The translations under genes were made by a program, and so were the position numbers. Below, piece after piece: positions 42,863-50,017 of a stretch of 64,000 nucleotides of DNA. Below the pieces are notes generated by a model. That model worked only from the letters and a program-made list of their open reading frames with translations, was not told the DNA's origin and ran no database searches. Where the stretch lies: assembly GCA_903929355.1 (NCBI GenBank), contig CAIYUN010000036.1, positions 1 to 64,000 of the forward strand. Reading direction: 5' to 3'. Position 1 is the stretch's first letter. Each line of letters starts with the position of its first letter. This DNA is from an uncultured Opitutaceae bacterium. GTDB lineage: Bacteria > Verrucomicrobiota > Verrucomicrobiia > Opitutales > Opitutaceae.

Positions 42863-44434
42863 TCAGACCGATCCGCTCATCAGCTTGTAGTTCACGGCGT
42901 CGGTCAGGGCCTCCCAACTGGCGTCGATGATGTTATCGCTCACGCCGACCGTGCCCCATACCGCATGGCCGTCGCCGCTCTCGATCAGCACCCGCGTGCG
43001 CGCGCCCGTGCCCGCGCCGCTGTCGAGGATGCGCACCTTGTAATCGCGCAGCGTCAGCGTCCCGAGCTGGGGATAATTCTTCTCCAGGGCCAGCCGCAGC
43101 GCCTTGTCGAGCGCCCCGACGGGGCCGGTGCACTCGGCCACCGTGTTGAAGGGCTGCCCGTCCACCTTGAGCTTGACGGTGGCCTCGGCCACCAGGTCCG
43201 CGCCGCGCCGCTCGACGATCACGCGATAGCCCTCGACGACGAAAAACGTGCGCCGCTGCCCCAGGCATTTGGCGATGAGCAGCCGCAGGGAGGCGTCGGC
43301 CGCCTCAAACTCGTAACCGCGGAACTCCAGCTCCTTGAGCTCCTCCACCAGGGTTTTCATCGCGGGGTTTTTCTCGTCGAGCGCAAAGCCCAGCTCCTTC
43401 GCCTTCATCACCATGCTGCTGCGGCCGGCCATGTCGGATACGAGGACCCGGGTGCGGTTGCCGACGAGCGCCGGGTCGATGTGCTCGTAGCTGCTTTTCA
43501 CCTTCTGCGCGGCATTGGCGTGCTGGCCGCCCTTGTGGGCGAAGGCCGACGCGCCGACGTAGGGCGCCTTCGGGTCGGGCCGCAGGTTGGCCAGTTCATC
43601 AAAGAAGAGCGAGAGCTCGCGCAGCTCGCCGAGCTGGGGTGCGCAATGGGCGGTGCGGCCCATTTTCAGGAAGAGGCCGGGCAGGATCGTCACGAGGTTG
43701 GCGTTGCCCACGCGCTCGCCATAGCCGTTGATCGTGCCCTGCACTAACGTTGCGCCCGCGTCCACCCCCGCGAGCGAGAGCGCCACGCCGAGCCCGCTGT
43801 CGTTGTGGCAGTGCACGCCGACCTTGTCCGCGCCGAACTCCGCCACCACGTGCGCGACGATGGCCTTGAACTCGTCCACCAGCGTGCCGCCATTGGTGTC
43901 GCAGAGCGTGAGATTGCCGGCGCCACCCTTGATCGCGGCGGCCAGCGAACGCAGCGCGTAGTCCGGGTCGGCCTTGTAGCCGTCGAAGAAGTGTTCCGCG
44001 TCATAGACCACCTCGCGGCCCTGCGTGGTGAGGAAACGCGCCGAGTCCTCGATCATGGCGAGGTTTTCCTCGAGCGTGGTGCGCAGGATGTCGGTGACCT
44101 GGATCGTCCAGGTTTTGCCCACGATGGTCATCACGGGCATCCCGCTGTCGAGCAACAGGCGGAGCTGCGTGTCGTCGGCCGCCTTGGTGCCCGCGCGGCG
44201 GGTCGCGCCAAAGGCGGCGAGTCGGGCGTGCTTGAGGCGGAGATTTCTGGCCTCCTGAAAAAACGTGATGTCGCGCGGATTGGAGCCGGGAAACCCTCCC
44301 TCGATGTAGTCCACCCCGAACGCGTCGAGCTTTTCCGCGATGCGGAGCTTGTCGGTCACGGAGAAGCTGATGCCCTCCCCCTGCGTGCCATCGCGGAGGG
44401 TGGTGTCGTAGATTTTGACGGTGGTGGAGTTCAT
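42863..44434 (-). CDS. cimA: (R)-citramalate synthase
   Basis: A 523-residue enzyme that condenses acetyl-CoA and pyruvate to citramalate, the first step of threonine-independent isoleucine synthesis. The N-terminal HMGL-like barrel has YDTTLRDGTQGEG, CDTNGG and the metal ligands of HCHNDSGL. GNANLV and FAHKGGQHANA match the CimA class (TIGR00977) rather than LeuA. A LeuA-type allosteric domain (about 395-520) likely binds isoleucine. An Ile-rich leader peptide and attenuator lie upstream (44545-44676), adding transcriptional control by the same end product. It is downstream of thrC on the same strand. Confidence 0.96.
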   Translation of the reverse strand: MNSTTVKIYDTTLRDGTQGEGISFSVTDKLRIAEKLDAFGVDYIEGGFPGSNPRDITFFQEARNLRLKHARLAAFGATRRAGTKAADDTQLRLLLDSGMPVMTIVGKTWTIQVTDILRTTLEENLAMIEDSARFLTTQGREVVYDAEHFFDGYKADPDYALRSLAAAIKGGAGNLTLCDTNGGTLVDEFKAIVAHVVAEFGADKVGVHCHNDSGLGVALSLAGVDAGATLVQGTINGYGERVGNANLVTILPGLFLKMGRTAHCAPQLGELRELSLFFDELANLRPDPKAPYVGASAFAHKGGQHANAAQKVKSSYEHIDPALVGNRTRVLVSDMAGRSSMVMKAKELGFALDEKNPAMKTLVEELKELEFRGYEFEAADASLRLLIAKCLGQRRTFFVVEGYRVIVERRGADLVAEATVKLKVDGQPFNTVAECTGPVGALDKALRLALEKNYPQLGTLTLRDYKVRILDSGAGTGARTRVLIESGDGHAVWGTVGVSDNIIDASWEALTDAVNYKLMSGSV

Positions 44435-44449: not shown

Positions 44450-44546
44450 GTTGAAGAGGGGAAAGGTTTAAGCGTTGAGGGGACCAGAAGTCGAACGTCT
44501 AAAGGAAGCTGAAGGGTTGAAAGGTCCAAAGGTCGAAGGGTGGAAA
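44450..44546. repeat. 8-bp repeat array between the attenuator and cimA
   Basis: Units such as GTTGAAAG, GTCCAAAG, GTCGAAGG and GTGGAAAA follow the attenuator terminator and run to near the cimA start. Confidence 0.8.
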
Positions 44547-44575
44547 ACAAAAAACCCGGGCGGAAAGGCCCGGGT
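44545..44575 (-). terminator. Attenuator terminator upstream of cimA
   Basis: ACCCGGGC (44554-44561) pairs with GCCCGGGT (44568-44575). On the minus strand the hairpin is followed by TTTTTTGTTTTCC. It lies between the leader peptide and cimA. The alternative pairing uses leader DNA 44619-44628 with 44569-44579 (10 bp, one bulged base), which would destroy this hairpin. Confidence 0.9.
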
Positions 44576-44604
44576 CAGGAAACTTGGCGTTGCTTGTCTT
44601 GTGC

Positions 44605-44676
44605 TTACGCCGCGTCGTCCTGCCCGGGTTGGCGGGCAATCGAAATAATCGCGGCAATAATGGGTGAGGCTTTCAC
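44605..44676 (-). CDS. Isoleucine-rich leader peptide of cimA
   Basis: A 23-residue frame: GTG start at 44676, an AAGG-type Shine-Dalgarno a few bases before it, TAA stop at 44605. The product is MKASPIIAAIISIARQPGQ followed by DDAA. Five of residues 6-13 are isoleucine, all ATT codons. The codons after the Ile run lie in the DNA segment (44619-44628) able to form an antiterminator with the 5' arm of the downstream terminator. This is the arrangement of ribosome-mediated attenuators: stalling at Ile codons when Ile-tRNA is scarce would expose the antiterminator and let RNA polymerase reach cimA. Confidence 0.87.
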   Translation of the reverse strand: MKASPIIAAIISIARQPGQDDAA

Positions 44677-44817
44677 GTTGAGCCTTACCTGGCATGGCGG
44701 GTTGAGTTTGTCGAGCGGAAAAGTTTACAGAGATCTGGCCGCCACGCTGATTCAATGAAGAAACGCTTTCGAGGCTGCAAGAGCATGCGGATCGCCCATG
44801 ACCTCGCCGAACAAATA

Positions 44818-44896: not shown

Positions 44897-46258
44897 TCAC
44901 ACCGCGTGCGCTTCGATGAAGGCGCGGATGGCGGCGGGGGTGGCGGCGATTTTGTGCTTCACCAGTGGCCGGGACTTGAGCGCCTCCAGACTGGGGTCAG
45001 TTGGCTCAATACCGATGGCAGCGCGAATGGTGTCGGGGAACTTGGCCGGGCTGGCGGTCGCGAGCACCACGCTCGGACGGCCGGGCGCAAGATCCTTGAA
45101 GCCGCAGGCCGTGTGCGGGTCGGTGATGTAGCCGTACTGGTCGTGAACGCTTTTGATGATCACGGGAATCTCGGCGTCGGTGCAACGAGAGGCGGTGAAC
45201 GTGTCGCGGTTGAAGTGCTCGAACCGGTAGCCACCGGTCGTGTTGAAGGTCTCCATGATCGCCCGTACTTTGGCCGGGTCGCGGCCGACGCTGTAGTAGA
45301 GGAACCGCTCAAAATTTGAGGCCACCTGGATGTCCATGGAGGGCGCGAAGCTCGGCGTGACCGCGCCGACCCGGTAGTCGCCGGTCGTGAAGAGGCGGTG
45401 GAGGATGTCGTTCTGGTTGGTCGCCACCCGGAAACCGCGAAGGGGCACACCCATCTGCTGGAGCAGCCAGCCCGCCAGCACATTGCCGAAATTGCCGGTG
45501 GGCACGACGAACTCCGCGTCATTCCGCACCTGGGCCGGCAGCCGCAGCCACGCCCAGAGATAATAGACGCACTGGGCGAGCACGCGCGCGAGGTTGATCG
45601 AGTTGACGGCCGAGAGGCGGTGGCGCGTGCGGAACGCCTGATCGCCGAACAGCTCCTTGAGGGCGGACTGCGCGTCGTCGAAAGTGCCATCCACCGCGAG
45701 GGCGAAGACATTGGCCGCGCCGGTGCAGGCCATCTGTCGCTCCTGGAGGGGTGAGACCCGGCCGTCAGGATAGGCGATGAAAATGGCGGTGCCCGGCTTG
45801 CCGAGCAGGCCGTGGATCGCGGCCGCACCCGTGTCGCCCGATGTGGCGCCCAGGACGTTGATCGTTTCACCGCGCACGCGGCACTGGCGCTCATAGAGGT
45901 TGCCGAGGACTTGCAGGGCAAAGTCCTTGAACGCGAGCGTCGGCCCGTGGAACAGCTCCAATACGAACAGATTGTCGGCGAGGCGGACGAGCGGCGCGAT
46001 TTCCGGACGCGAAAAGCGCGTGTAGGACGCACGAATAATGGCCTGCAGCTCCGCCTCCGGAATGTCCGTCGCAAAGCGCCGCATGAACTCGTAGCACAGG
46101 TCGGCGTAGCCCAGCGGGGCGAAGCCGGCGAGCTCAGCCGCGGTAAACTGCGGCAAGGATTCCGGGAGAAACAGCCCGCCATCGGGCGCGAGGCCGGTGG
46201 CCACGGCGTCGGAGAAGCCGAGGGGCGGAGTTTGGCCTCTGGTGGAGATGTAGCGCAT
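44897..46258 (-). CDS. thrC: Threonine synthase
   Basis: A 453-residue PLP enzyme converting O-phosphohomoserine to threonine. It begins MRYISTRGQTPPLGFSDAV, as in the E. coli-type (class II) enzyme, with the PLP lysine in LAFKDFALQ and the phosphate loop TSGDTGAAA. It completes the lysC-hom-thrC set of this block. The short gap to the four-helix-bundle gene carries a 7-bp repeat. Confidence 0.96.
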   Translation of the reverse strand: MRYISTRGQTPPLGFSDAVATGLAPDGGLFLPESLPQFTAAELAGFAPLGYADLCYEFMRRFATDIPEAELQAIIRASYTRFSRPEIAPLVRLADNLFVLELFHGPTLAFKDFALQVLGNLYERQCRVRGETINVLGATSGDTGAAAIHGLLGKPGTAIFIAYPDGRVSPLQERQMACTGAANVFALAVDGTFDDAQSALKELFGDQAFRTRHRLSAVNSINLARVLAQCVYYLWAWLRLPAQVRNDAEFVVPTGNFGNVLAGWLLQQMGVPLRGFRVATNQNDILHRLFTTGDYRVGAVTPSFAPSMDIQVASNFERFLYYSVGRDPAKVRAIMETFNTTGGYRFEHFNRDTFTASRCTDAEIPVIIKSVHDQYGYITDPHTACGFKDLAPGRPSVVLATASPAKFPDTIRAAIGIEPTDPSLEALKSRPLVKHKIAATPAAIRAFIEAHAV

Positions 46259-46260
46259 AG

Positions 46261-46300
46261 ATGTCAGAAATCAGAGGTCAGAGGTCAGACCGAAGGTCAG
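46261..46300. repeat. 7-bp repeat flanking the four-helix gene, left arm
   Basis: GTCAGAA / ATCAGAG / GTCAGAG / GTCAGAC units. Inverted relative to the array at 46699-46736 on the other side of the gene. Confidence 0.85.
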
Positions 46301-46710
46301 CGCTTCGCAACAAATGAAGCGGGTTTGTTGATCATGCTACCGAGCATCCGACCTACTTCCGCCAGCAGTGAGCGCAGCTCCGTGAGCTGGGCTTGGGAGA
46401 TATAGCCGTGCGCCTCGGCATTGATCAGCCAGGGTTCGGTCTCATACCCCTCGCCGTCCGCATCCACCAATTTGGCGACAAAGGAAGCCTCATAGCGGCG
46501 TTTGCCCCAGGCTTCCGCGATGTTTGCGCCAACCGAACGCGAAGCGCGGCGTGCTTGATCGGTGAGTGAGTAGCGTTCTTCGGGCGGCCAGGTCTTCGAA
46601 AGGCGAAACACCAGCAACGCCACTTGATGGGCCTTTTGCCAGACAATCAGGTCTGTAAAATGCCTGATCGCCACAGGGCTTCGGGCCGATGCTTTGCTGA
46701 TCTCTGACAT
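46297..46710 (-). CDS. Four-helix-bundle protein (S23/23S rRNA IVP family)
   Basis: A 137-residue protein of the family first described in 23S rRNA intervening sequences. Family marks are FTDLIVWQKAHQVALLVF, LTDQARRASRSVGANIAEAWGK and a C-terminal AEVGRMLGSMINK. Here it is a free-standing gene inserted between lysC and thrC, bracketed by inverted 7-bp repeats; the repeat reaches into the first codons. Start: ATG at 46710; a longer frame reads only through the repeat. Function unknown (family members form pentameric bundles; some, such as Avd, bind RNA). Confidence 0.88.
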   Translation of the reverse strand: MSEISKASARSPVAIRHFTDLIVWQKAHQVALLVFRLSKTWPPEERYSLTDQARRASRSVGANIAEAWGKRRYEASFVAKLVDADGEGYETEPWLINAEAHGYISQAQLTELRSLLAEVGRMLGSMINKPASFVAKR

Positions 46711-46736
46711 CTGATTTCTGACCTCTGCTTTTGGCC
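46699..46736. repeat. 7-bp repeat flanking the four-helix gene, right arm
   Basis: TCTCTGA / CATCTGA / TTTCTGA / CCTCTGC units, inverted relative to 46261-46300. Abuts the lysC stop. Confidence 0.85.
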
Positions 46737-47948
46737 TCACCCGAGGCCAAACGCCGCATGTGCGACGCGCGCGGCCTCGTCGGCCTGGGTGGAGGCGATG
46801 ATGACCGAGATCTTGATCTCCGAGGTGCTGATCAGCTCGATGTTGATGCCCTTGTCGGCCAGCGCTTGGAAGAGGGTCGCGGCCACGCCGCTGTGGGTCT
46901 TCATGCCCACCCCGACCACGGAGAGCTTGGCGATGCCTTCGTGCACGGCGACCTCGCCGCCCCCGAGCGCGAGCACGACCGGCTCGAGCGCCCGCTGCGC
47001 CCGGGCCTTGTCGGTCAGCGGCACCGTGAACGTGAGGTTGGCCACGCCGCCCCGCCCCTCGTTTTGCACGATCATGTCCACGATCACGGTGGCGTCGGCC
47101 AGCGCTCGGAAGACCTTGGCGGCGGAGCCGGGCTTGTCGGGCAGGTGGCTAACGACGACCTTGGCCTGGTCCTTGTCCACGGCCACGCCGCGGACGGCAA
47201 CTTTTTCCATGTAGGCGACTTCTTCTTTCACGATGGTTCCTGGGTTTTGGTTGAATGAGGAGCGGACTTCAAAAACGACGCGGTATTTCTTGGCGAACTC
47301 GACGGAACGCGACTGCATGACCTTGGAACCGGACGAGGCGAGCTCGAGCAGCTCGTCGTAGGAGATCTCGGGCAACTTGGTGGCGTTTTTCACGACCCGC
47401 GGGTCGGCGGTGTAGATGCCGTCCACATCGGTGTAGATCTCGCACTTGTCGGCCTTGATGGCGGCGGCCAGCGCGATGGCGGTCAGGTCGGAGCCGCCCC
47501 GGCCGAGCGTGGTGATCTGCCCCTCCTCGTTGATGCCCTGGAAACCGGCGACGATGATGACCTTGCCGGCGCGGAGGTCCTCCTCCAGCGGGCGGGCGTC
47601 GATGGTCTTGATCTTCGCCTTGGTGTGGACGGTATCGGTGAAGATGCCCGCCTGCGCGCCGGTGTAGCTCACCGCGTCCACCCCGACCCCCTGCAGCGCC
47701 ATCGCGGTGAGTGCGATGGTTTCCTGCTCGCCGATGGCCAGGAGCTGGTCCATCTCGCGCTCGCTGGGGTTGGCGCACAGCGCGTGGGCGCGGGCGATCA
47801 GCTCGTTGGTCACACCCGCGCGGGCCGACACGACGACCACCAGCTCGTGGCCCTCCGCCCGGAAGGCCTTGATGCGCTGGGCCACATTTTTGATGCGCTC
47901 GACGTCACCGACCGAGGTGCCGCCGTATTTTTGGACGATTCGAGCCAT
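46737..47948 (-). CDS. lysC: Aspartate kinase
   Basis: A 403-residue monofunctional aspartokinase: MARIVQKYGGTSVG opening, GRGGSDLTAIALA catalytic region and two C-terminal ACT domains (about 265-400) for feedback control. In related enzymes an internal start yields a beta subunit; a candidate here is the Met of MEKVAVRGV at the start of the ACT region. It feeds hom and thrC, encoded on either side. The short upstream gap (69 bp) has a repeat array and leaves no room for a lysine riboswitch. Confidence 0.97.
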   Translation of the reverse strand: MARIVQKYGGTSVGDVERIKNVAQRIKAFRAEGHELVVVVSARAGVTNELIARAHALCANPSEREMDQLLAIGEQETIALTAMALQGVGVDAVSYTGAQAGIFTDTVHTKAKIKTIDARPLEEDLRAGKVIIVAGFQGINEEGQITTLGRGGSDLTAIALAAAIKADKCEIYTDVDGIYTADPRVVKNATKLPEISYDELLELASSGSKVMQSRSVEFAKKYRVVFEVRSSFNQNPGTIVKEEVAYMEKVAVRGVAVDKDQAKVVVSHLPDKPGSAAKVFRALADATVIVDMIVQNEGRGGVANLTFTVPLTDKARAQRALEPVVLALGGGEVAVHEGIAKLSVVGVGMKTHSGVAATLFQALADKGINIELISTSEIKISVIIASTQADEAARVAHAAFGLG

Positions 47949-48017: not shown

Positions 48018-49325
48018 TCAGCCGGTGAAATCGCCGATGCGCAAGAGCAGCGGCGGCTCGAGCACGCAGGCGAGCCGGCCGAGGCGCGTGACGGTGGCGC
48101 GGATGGCCTTCTCGTTGCTCGCGTGCGTGGTCAGGATGAGCGTGGCCGCGCCCCGGCGGGCGCTCGGGCGCTGGACCATGCTGGCGATGCTCACGCGCGC
48201 CTGGGCGGTGGCCGTGGCGATCTTGGCGAGCACGCCGGGCTCGTCCTTCACGTCAAAGCGCAGGTAGTGGCGGCCGTGGACGCGCTCGAGCGGCGCGAGC
48301 GGGCAGCGCTGGAGCACGGGCACGGGCAAAGGGGCGTTGCCCCGGAGCCGCAGCACGACCGCGTCGACAATGTCGCTGATGACCGCGCTGGCGGTCGCAT
48401 CCTGGCCCGCACCCCGGCCGATATAGACGGTCTCGCCGACGACATCACCGGTGACGGAGATGCCGTTCTGCACGTCGTTGACGTTGGCGAGCACCTGGGT
48501 GACCGGCAGCAGCGTCGGGTGGACGCGCACGAACAGCTCGCCGTTGGCAAAGTCCCGCGTGATGACGGCGAGCAACTTGATGGCGAACCCCTGCTCGCGG
48601 GCAAACTGGAGGTCGGCCTGGGTGATGCGGGTGATGCCCTCGACCAGCATGGCCCGCGTCGACACCCACGCGCCATGCGCAAGGTAGGCGAGGATGCTGG
48701 CCTTGTGCGCGGTATCCCAGCCCTCGACATCGAGCGACTCGTCGGCCTCGGCGTAACCCAGGCGCTTGGCGTCCGCGAGGATTTCGGCGTAGCCCAGGCC
48801 CTCGCGCTCCATGCGGGTGAGGATGTAGTTGCAGGTGCCGTTGAGGATGCCGTAGATCAGGCCGAACCGGTTGGCGACCAGGCCCTCGCGCAACGCCTTG
48901 ATGATCGGGATGCCCCCGGCCACCGAGGCCTCGAAAAAGAAATGGCCGCCGTGCCGGCGCGCCGCCGTGAAAATCTCCGGCCCGTGCGCGCAAAGCAGCG
49001 CCTTGTTGGCGGAGACGACCGTCTTGCCCTGGCGGAGCGCGGCGAGCGTGACCTCGCGGGCGAGCGTGGTGCCGCCGATGAGCTCGCAGACAATGTGGAT
49101 GTCCGGGTCAGTCGCGACGGCGAGCGGGTCGGTGGTCAGCTTGGACAACGGGACGCGGACCGCGCGCTTCTTCTTGAGGTCGCGGACGCTGGCGCGATGG
49201 AGATTGAGCCGCACGCCGAGCTTGGGCTCCAGCGAGGCGCGGGCGCTCTCAAGGTGTTTCCACACGCCCTGCCCCACGGTGCCGAGACCGCAGATGCCGA
49301 TATTGATGATGGGAAGCTGGCTCAT
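48018..49325 (-). CDS. hom: Homoserine dehydrogenase
   Basis: A 435-residue enzyme reducing aspartate semialdehyde to homoserine. The NAD(P) motif is GICGLGTVGQG, the catalytic region includes SANKALL and GILNGTCNYILTRM, and DESLDVEGWDTAHK holds the active acid. The C-terminal ACT domain (about 355-435) allows threonine feedback. Start: ATG at 49325, overlapping the plsY stop (ATGA), so hom is translated with plsY. It belongs to the minus-strand Asp-family block with lysC and thrC. Confidence 0.97.
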   Translation of the reverse strand: MSQLPIINIGICGLGTVGQGVWKHLESARASLEPKLGVRLNLHRASVRDLKKKRAVRVPLSKLTTDPLAVATDPDIHIVCELIGGTTLAREVTLAALRQGKTVVSANKALLCAHGPEIFTAARRHGGHFFFEASVAGGIPIIKALREGLVANRFGLIYGILNGTCNYILTRMEREGLGYAEILADAKRLGYAEADESLDVEGWDTAHKASILAYLAHGAWVSTRAMLVEGITRITQADLQFAREQGFAIKLLAVITRDFANGELFVRVHPTLLPVTQVLANVNDVQNGISVTGDVVGETVYIGRGAGQDATASAVISDIVDAVVLRLRGNAPLPVPVLQRCPLAPLERVHGRHYLRFDVKDEPGVLAKIATATAQARVSIASMVQRPSARRGAATLILTTHASNEKAIRATVTRLGRLACVLEPPLLLRIGDFTG

Positions 49326-50017
49326 GTTCGGGAAGTCTCGGGGGTGGCGGGCTTTTTCACAAACTTGTTTTCCGTGCCGTTCAGGAGTCGGACGATATTG
49401 GCGCGGTGACGGAGGGTAACGAAGACGGCGATGAGGGTGGCCAAGCCGAGCAGAATGGGTGGCTCGCCGAGAAAAAACGCCGCAAGGGGTAACGCAAGGG
49501 CGGCGAGAATCGAGGCGAGGGAAACGTAGCGCGAGAGACGGAAGGTGACCAACCATGTCGCGAGGGCGCCGGCCAAAACACATGGCATGAGAACAAGTAA
49601 TCCGCCCGCGGTGGTCGCGACACCCTTGCCGCCACGGAATTTGGTGAAGAGGGAATAGCTGTGGCCGACGAGGGCAGCGATCAAGCCGACCACAGCCATC
49701 TCAACGGGTTGCGAAAAGTTGAAATGGACGAAGCCAAACGGCGTCGCCATGCCGAATTGCCAGAAGACGTAACCCTTGCCCTCGAACGCGAGCAGAGGCC
49801 AACCGGAGGCGGCGGCCCCCTTCAAGGCGTCGAGCAGAAACACCAGATTGCCTGGACCACGGCCCAATACCCGTCGCACGTTGGTCGCGCCTGGGCTCTT
49901 ACTTCCGACCTCAAAGATATTGACCCCCTTGCCCTTAGCCACGAGAAAACCAAACGGGAGCGCACCAAGCAGGTACCCGACCAGAGCGGCGAGGCAATAT
50001 GCATTGAAGAGGTCCAT
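49322..50017 (-). CDS. plsY: Acyl-phosphate glycerol-3-phosphate acyltransferase
   Basis: A 231-residue inner-membrane enzyme that acylates glycerol-3-phosphate with acyl-phosphate, the first step of phospholipid synthesis. The motifs are SKSPGATNVRRVLG (family SGNPGATN), GHSYSLFTKFRGGKGVAT and a C-terminal RHRANI. About six membrane helices. The ATGA overlap with hom is probably just compact organisation. A 90-bp gap separates it from serA. Confidence 0.96.
   Translation of the reverse strand: MDLFNAYCLAALVGYLLGALPFGFLVAKGKGVNIFEVGSKSPGATNVRRVLGRGPGNLVFLLDALKGAAASGWPLLAFEGKGYVFWQFGMATPFGFVHFNFSQPVEMAVVGLIAALVGHSYSLFTKFRGGKGVATTAGGLLVLMPCVLAGALATWLVTFRLSRYVSLASILAALALPLAAFFLGEPPILLGLATLIAVFVTLRHRANIVRLLNGTENKFVKKPATPETSRT

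Follow-up and report, generated by a model that had tools for sequence, protein, structure and literature searches.

How is cimA, the gene for citramalate synthase, controlled in an uncultured Opitutaceae bacterium in which a small frame crowded with isoleucine codons and a hairpin separate it from thrC? In the window (the whole stretch of 64,000 nt that was analysed), the minus-strand order is hom, lysC, thrC, leader, cimA, and cimA is identified by a TIGR00977 match of 685 bits against a cut-off of 450. A 147-aa frame that presumably resembles four-helix-bundle (S23-type) proteins lies between thrC and lysC (46297-46740, minus strand). Threonine dehydratase (ilvA) is the other route to 2-oxobutyrate. 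Since no threonine dehydratase was found at E 1e-20 in the window's own genome (96% complete), cimA alone is present of the two entry routes examined. The genome has three PALP-family genes: thrC, a gene read as trpB, and a third that is taken, from the neighbouring sulfate-type ABC transporter gene, as a cysteine synthase. Inspection of its ilvB by eye revealed no comparable leader.

We read the element before cimA as a ribosome-mediated, isoleucine-specific transcription attenuator that would respond to charged tRNA-Ile, and we put the probability of this reading at about 0.9. Transcription would start at the leader start codon or shortly before it. With charged tRNA-Ile, the ribosome would reach the stop codon and cover arm 2 of the leader RNA, arm 3 would then pair with arm 4, and transcription would end before cimA. 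A ribosome stalled at the Ile codons would instead let arm 2 capture arm 3 before arm 4 is synthesized; once 2:3 has formed, RNA polymerase would continue into cimA, and isoleucine starvation is thus predicted to raise cimA transcription. The same device would control an ACT-less threonine dehydratase in sister lineages. The core of this account was already present in the sequence-only reading of the locus and is supported; missing from it were the ilvA target, the probable (nearly) leaderless start and the footprint-like spacing between the Ile codons and arm 2.

Table 1. Features of the cimA leader locus in the window, in minus-strand order.
Feature	Position	Strand	Basis
hom	48018-49583	-	named by NCBIfam
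lysC	46737-47948	-	named by NCBIfam
thrC, threonine synthase, upstream neighbour of the leader	44897-46258	-	named by NCBIfam
TCGACA, -35-like box, putative leader promoter	44709-44714	-	recurrence of TNGACA in relatives
Leader ORF, GTG start, TAA stop, 23 codons, VKASPIIAAIISIARQPGQDDAA	44605-44676	-	sequence; compared with 50 other distinct leaders
Regulatory Ile codons 6, 7, 10, 11 and 13, all ATT	44638-44661	-	sequence; spacing to arm 2 in 51 leaders
Pause hairpin 1:2, TTGCCCG / CGGGCAG, loop CCAACC	44620-44639	-	folding, swap-test reading
Arm 2, CCCGGGCAGG, within the leader ORF, starts 21 nt before the stop codon	44619-44628	-	sequence
Arm 3, CCTGACCCGGG, partner of arm 2 (antiterminator) or arm 4 (terminator)	44569-44579	-	swap tests, folds
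Intrinsic terminator 3:4 with T-rich tail	44544-44576	-	sequence; pair counts in relatives
cimA, citramalate synthase, 523 aa, LeuA_dimer regulatory domain	42863-44434	-	NCBIfam and domain scan

The leader, its relatives and its isoleucine codons

Reading upstream of cimA yielded 21 leaders, from which the alignment A1 and the model R1 were built; R1 matches the window at one place. Named relatives in the GTDB collection are Opitutaceae (e.g. Rariglobus). At E 0.001, cimA matches were present in 51 of 57 close genomes, some only to relatives such as leuA, and at E 1e-100 in 206 of 252 family genomes. R1 matched 168 of these 252 genomes at E 0.01, many of the weak matches covering only the 3′ part of the model, and many relatives have no strong leader match. 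The strong set consists of 84 R1 matches with E values up to 4.6e-7, all of them full-length but for one that lies at a contig end. A subset of 51 distinct leaders (33 before cimA, 18 before ilvA) was measured, with L163 and L172 dropped as duplicates of L075 and L073, and L197, the contig-end match of G118, left out. All 53 leader rows match R1, but they were selected by the model and are not independent evidence. Among 273 genomes drawn from the order, R1 matches stronger than 1e-6 were confined to the family, and eight genomes outside it gave matches of 1.6e-6 or weaker. The weak order-search matches L239-L244 (five outside the family, one inside) were rejected; none is leader-like, and their only Ile-rich frame, of 37 aa in L243, does not resemble a leader either.

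No Rfam family reached its cut-off on the window's leader. Among 14 loci scanned, no gathering score was exceeded at the leader in L008, L014, L015, L183, L188 and L189, and the only match was a tRNA in L269. A T-box, riboswitch or other Rfam family was rejected, as no covariance model scored above its cut-off at the leaders scanned.

The 23-codon frame with five ATT codons in eight positions, described in the sequence-only reading, is present. It is the sole frame of 8-60 codons in the 64 kb to hold five or more Ile within eight codons, a terminator follows it, and no comparable Ile-rich frame arose in 60 dinucleotide shuffles of the window. Each of the 51 leaders has 2-7 Ile codons, and 46 have at least four. 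The proposed check of codon conservation came out in favour of the attenuator, in that Ile recurs in the 33 distinct cimA leaders as a property, not at fixed positions. ATT makes up 121 of 171 Ile codons (71%) in the cimA leaders and 59 of 81 in the ilvA leaders; its share in the window's cimA, thrC, lysC and hom is 10 of 101 (10%). A rarely used codon such as ATT would fit a sensor role. The codon bias and the recurrence of Ile also point towards translation of the leader. The leader peptides are hydrophobic, and their residue order and length vary.

The motif TNGACA lies 29-45 nt upstream of the leader start in 33/33 distinct cimA leaders and 12/18 ilvA leaders. If a 17-nt spacer after the -35-like box is assumed, the predicted +1 would fall on the leader start codon or a few bases upstream of it, and the position of TNGACA thereby suggests a nearly leaderless start of the leader peptide. 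The Shine-Dalgarno-like AAGG noted earlier does exist in the window but is not conserved: in the tested stretch, such a motif occurs in two of the 53 leader rows (the window and L014), and the other 51 are without it. Given TNGACA at 29-45 nt, a (nearly) leaderless start is more probable than one driven by a Shine-Dalgarno sequence. Such a start is not new in itself, since passages of PMC11857589 place the transcription start of Corynebacterium glutamicum ilvBNC one nucleotide from its leader start codon.

Alternative pairing and coevolution of the arms

The strong terminator hairpin reported before cimA (44576-44553, minus strand) has 9 pairs and a loop of 6, followed by a T-rich tail, and the alternative pairing of arm 2 with arm 3, with one bulged base, likewise exists in the sequence. 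The fold of 44545-44690 has z = -3.08, and none of 200 shuffles was as stable. The 51 leaders fall into 38 of a CCCGGG type and 13 of a TCAGGG type, between which arms 2, 3 and 4 change jointly from CCCGGGC, CCCGGG and CCCGGG(G) to TCAGGGC, GCCCTGA and TCAGGGC. Within the TCAGGG type, the second helix occurs as GTGA/TCAC, GTGG/CCAC and ATGG/CCAT.

The subtypes differ by a one-base shift of arm 3, which makes a single-column count of the 2:3 helix impossible. Swap tests were substituted, which cover arm parts outside the core and treat the leaders as independent although they are related. The tail of arm 2 paired with its own arm-3 head at -14.09 kcal/mol versus -11.54 kcal/mol when swapped (n = 51), and 0 of 20,000 permutations were as good (p < 0.0001). 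With 32 non-redundant leaders, the values were -13.98 versus -11.13 kcal/mol, again with no permutation of 20,000 as good. Within subtypes, the non-redundant test gave p = 0.0001 for the CCCGGG type (23 leaders) and p = 0.0003 for the TCAGGG type (9 leaders). A first swap test on 21 cimA leaders had given p = 0.008; for five of these (L015, L022, L056, L073 and L075), pairing with the leader's own arm was weaker than with 15-18 of the 20 other arms. In the terminator, double changes occupied 44 cells versus 13.7 in shuffles and at most one with slid partners, and the covariation score was 0.242 versus 0.127 in shuffles; for both measures, 0 of 500 shuffles were as high. The number of terminator pairs with double changes (3 of 9) was equalled or exceeded in 310 of 500 shuffles, the pair-type count was reached by all of them, and a large part of the terminator signal is the single split between the two subtypes. 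Taken together, these results show that the two alternative hairpins coevolve, as the sequence-only reading had proposed to check: arms 2 and 3 by the swap tests, and the terminator by the pair counts.

Counted from its first base, the last Ile codon lies 12 nt before arm 2 in 41 of the 51 leaders, 15 nt in nine and 9 nt in one. A ribosome extends about this far beyond its A site, so that one stalled there would cover arm 1 and just free arm 2. The stop codon follows the start of arm 2 by 21 nt (CCCGGG type) or 24 nt (TCAGGG type) in 49 of 51 leaders, the exceptions being L007 and L022, and a ribosome at the stop should thus cover arm 2.

Snapshot folds were made for the 51 leaders on the RNA as it is before arm 4 is synthesized, with the ribosome placed at set positions. 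With the ribosome on the last Ile codon, arms 2:3 were paired (P > 0.5) in 50/51. With the ribosome on the stop codon, they were paired in 0/51, which holds by construction since arm 2 was omitted from the fold. Without a ribosome, 2:3 was still preferred in 39/51, a point against the model. Full-length equilibrium folding separates the stalled from the free state poorly: the terminator prevailed (P > 0.5) in 43/51 leaders with the ribosome on the last Ile codon (0.82 in the window), and it also won in 46/51 with the ribosome on the first Ile codon, in 51/51 with the ribosome on the stop and in 50/51 without one. This speaks against a purely thermodynamic reading. Since the terminator wins at equilibrium even in the stalled state, the model relies on arms 2:3 forming first, as known attenuators likewise do, and we read antitermination as set by the order of synthesis, not by final stability.

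A second target and other elements upstream of cimA

The sequence-only reading knew the leader from cimA alone, which proved too narrow: 56 of the 84 strong matches lie before cimA, 23 before the gene for a short, ACT-less threonine dehydratase in relatives that carry no such leader at cimA, and five elsewhere or without an assigned place (G142 and G146, with no cimA position to compare; G118:C33, at a contig end; G258:C27; and G172, before a long ilvA). For the 23 ilvA placements, both leader and gene were read in 18 and the gene in G095, G102, G113 and G134, and G249 was placed from coordinates. No genome carries the leader at both cimA and ilvA at a strong score (Fisher p = 0.003, with kinship ignored); G118 has a second, cut-off match at a contig end. 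At E 1e-100, cimA is also present in 21 of the 23 genomes with an ilvA leader, and the cimA leader is absent at all ten cimA loci that were read in such genomes. A CTTGCC promoter-like site stands 39-43 nt before the cimA start at 9 of these 10 loci and at 17 of 23 loci from family genomes listed for neither placement; loci with CTTGCC and no leader at cimA include L006, L012, L050 and L068.

The dehydratases that follow the leader are 330-348 aa long where intact, and the five scanned contain the PALP domain only. For two of them that were scanned, the best NCBIfam model was threonine ammonia-lyase, below its cut-off, as is expected for a shorter protein. Of the dehydratases without a strong leader match, the four scanned are 401-408 aa long, and all four have a weak ACT or ACT_4 match below the Pfam cut-off. 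Among the 23 ilvA genes, three seem to be broken or degenerate (L185, L194/L212 and L195). The decayed-looking dehydratases of L185 and L195 keep the leader, with SSR in place of SFK, and internal stops. When leader placement (at cimA, at ilvA, or no strong match) is mapped on a 64-row cimA tree, at least 18 changes of state are needed, but the well-supported branches alone force only 4-5 per state, and absent leaders may be assembly gaps. Even genomes that share a genus code, g67 or g6, differ in where the leader is placed. A long biosynthetic ilvA of the TIGR01124 type, from a different genus of the family, is preceded by MRTASARLLATTTIIISPIPG and a hairpin resembling a terminator (L191:1011-1145).

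Ile-rich small frames also precede cimA outside the family (L042, L044, L086, L108, L147, L269, L299, L309 and L324). Their sequences differ, several have no obvious T-run, and they are candidate attenuators only. Another recurring element, from other Verrucomicrobiota, was seen at L299, L309, L312, L324, L288 and L294; it contains TCGAATTA (ATTCGAATTA in 5/6), followed by GGGC and often by a CTGCG..CGCAG-like hairpin, and lies in short frames such as MASQSAIFAIRIISGLLCA; these six loci have no Rfam match. Short frames also occur at L108 and L142, the one at L108 reading MGTESDAFSSIIITAIMIG; behind them lies a possible long stem without an obvious terminator, in which GGTGAT/ATCACC changes to GGCGAT/ATCGCC as read by eye; this may be another mode of control. 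L031 and L087 share the ending AIxRIR* with CGAATTCGGTAGCCCGGGATCC, possibly a further leader type. In other phyla, the Ile-containing frames MISTSEIKIS... upstream of cimA turned out to match the end of the window's lysC and were discarded.

Alternative explanations and known attenuators

The hairpin could be a mere terminator of thrC, with the small frame accidental and cimA served by a promoter of its own farther downstream. The hairpin does lie between thrC and cimA, the 109 nt from the T-run to cimA in the window would hold a promoter, and relatives without the leader often have the CTTGCC site about 40 nt before cimA. This would not explain why the frame recurs with its Ile codons and coevolving arms, or why the same leader precedes ilvA. 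Moreover, the T-run ends at most 15 nt before the gene at 24 of 51 loci (12/33 cimA, 12/18 ilvA), directly abutting it at two, which leaves no space for an intervening promoter. We therefore regard this explanation as very improbable, and slightly less credit still goes to a peptide that acts without codon counting, either as an arrest peptide sensing through the nascent chain or as a small hydrophobic protein. The hydrophobic peptides and a PG frequent near the end would suit such a role, yet the residues encoded by arm 2 are PG in 35/51 leaders, SG in 14/51 and LG in 2/51 with the pairing kept throughout, and peptide order and length vary. The strong preference for ATT over ATC and the nearly fixed spacing from the last Ile codon to arm 2 also argue against it.

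It is likewise improbable, though less so than these two, that attenuation is real and that the leader family additionally senses methionine or other branched-chain amino acids. Several ilvA leaders (L179-L198, from several genera) mix ATG with ATT, as in AAMIMIR and MIIGMIII, and the L185 leader before ilvA is rich in Leu and Val. However, the branched-chain codons of the window's leader after the GTG start are all Ile, and L185 precedes a dehydratase without the usual SFK motif, where decay is probable. Isoleucine-specific attenuation is the reading that the recurring Ile codons and the coevolving alternative hairpins support.

Amino-acid attenuators are known from the proteobacterial ilvGMEDA, ilvBN, thr, leu and his operons. 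As outlined in passages of PMC1262725, they combine a leader ORF rich in codons for the product with a pause hairpin, an antiterminator and an intrinsic terminator. The Opitutaceae leader has the same anatomy and also stands before a biosynthetic gene; it differs in the dominance of Ile codons, in its target (cimA or ACT-less ilvA) and in mostly lacking a Shine-Dalgarno sequence, its sequence having been compared with theirs via Rfam alone. C. glutamicum ilvBNC resembles it in having a branched-chain leader peptide and a near-leaderless start, like the one suggested here, but belongs to another phylum, and its leader peptide has mixed Ile/Val/Leu codons and precedes ilvB (PMC11857589, in part). 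A title cited in PMC13158618 concerns leader-peptide synthesis in the absence of a ribosome binding site. The ilvB-II, ilvB-OMG and ilvB motifs have predicted uORFs rich in branched-chain codons, with AUG, GUG or UUG starts in ilvB-II, according to an excerpt of PMC10272879; they precede ilvB, and the window's leader scores below every Rfam cut-off. A literature search of titles and openings, with subscription papers mostly outside it, returned no attenuator before cimA or in Verrucomicrobiota. By word search, PMC11683593, PMC13158618 and PMC9026213 share terms but treat other matters, and PMC2965389 and PMC2864571 gave no mention of citramalate or Verrucomicrobiota. The target gene, the phylum and the alternation with ilvA thus appear to be new, and attenuation itself is classical.

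It is about an even bet, in our judgement, that one Opitutaceae leader family is a portable isoleucine switch that moved repeatedly between the two entry enzymes, sitting on ilvA where an ilvA without ACT is used and otherwise on cimA, with attenuation replacing or following feedback control along with the route. On this view the switch works from a leader peptide with a leaderless start, and Ile-rich leaders of unrelated origin arose before cimA in other Verrucomicrobiota. The finding would extend classical amino-acid attenuation to citramalate synthase and to the Verrucomicrobiota. It would also offer a natural experiment, in which one regulatory RNA sits on either of two 2-oxobutyrate-making enzymes within one family, and it opens the question of whether loss of the allosteric domain accompanies the gain of attenuation. 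For each genome, the placement of the leader would predict which route carries the isoleucine flux.
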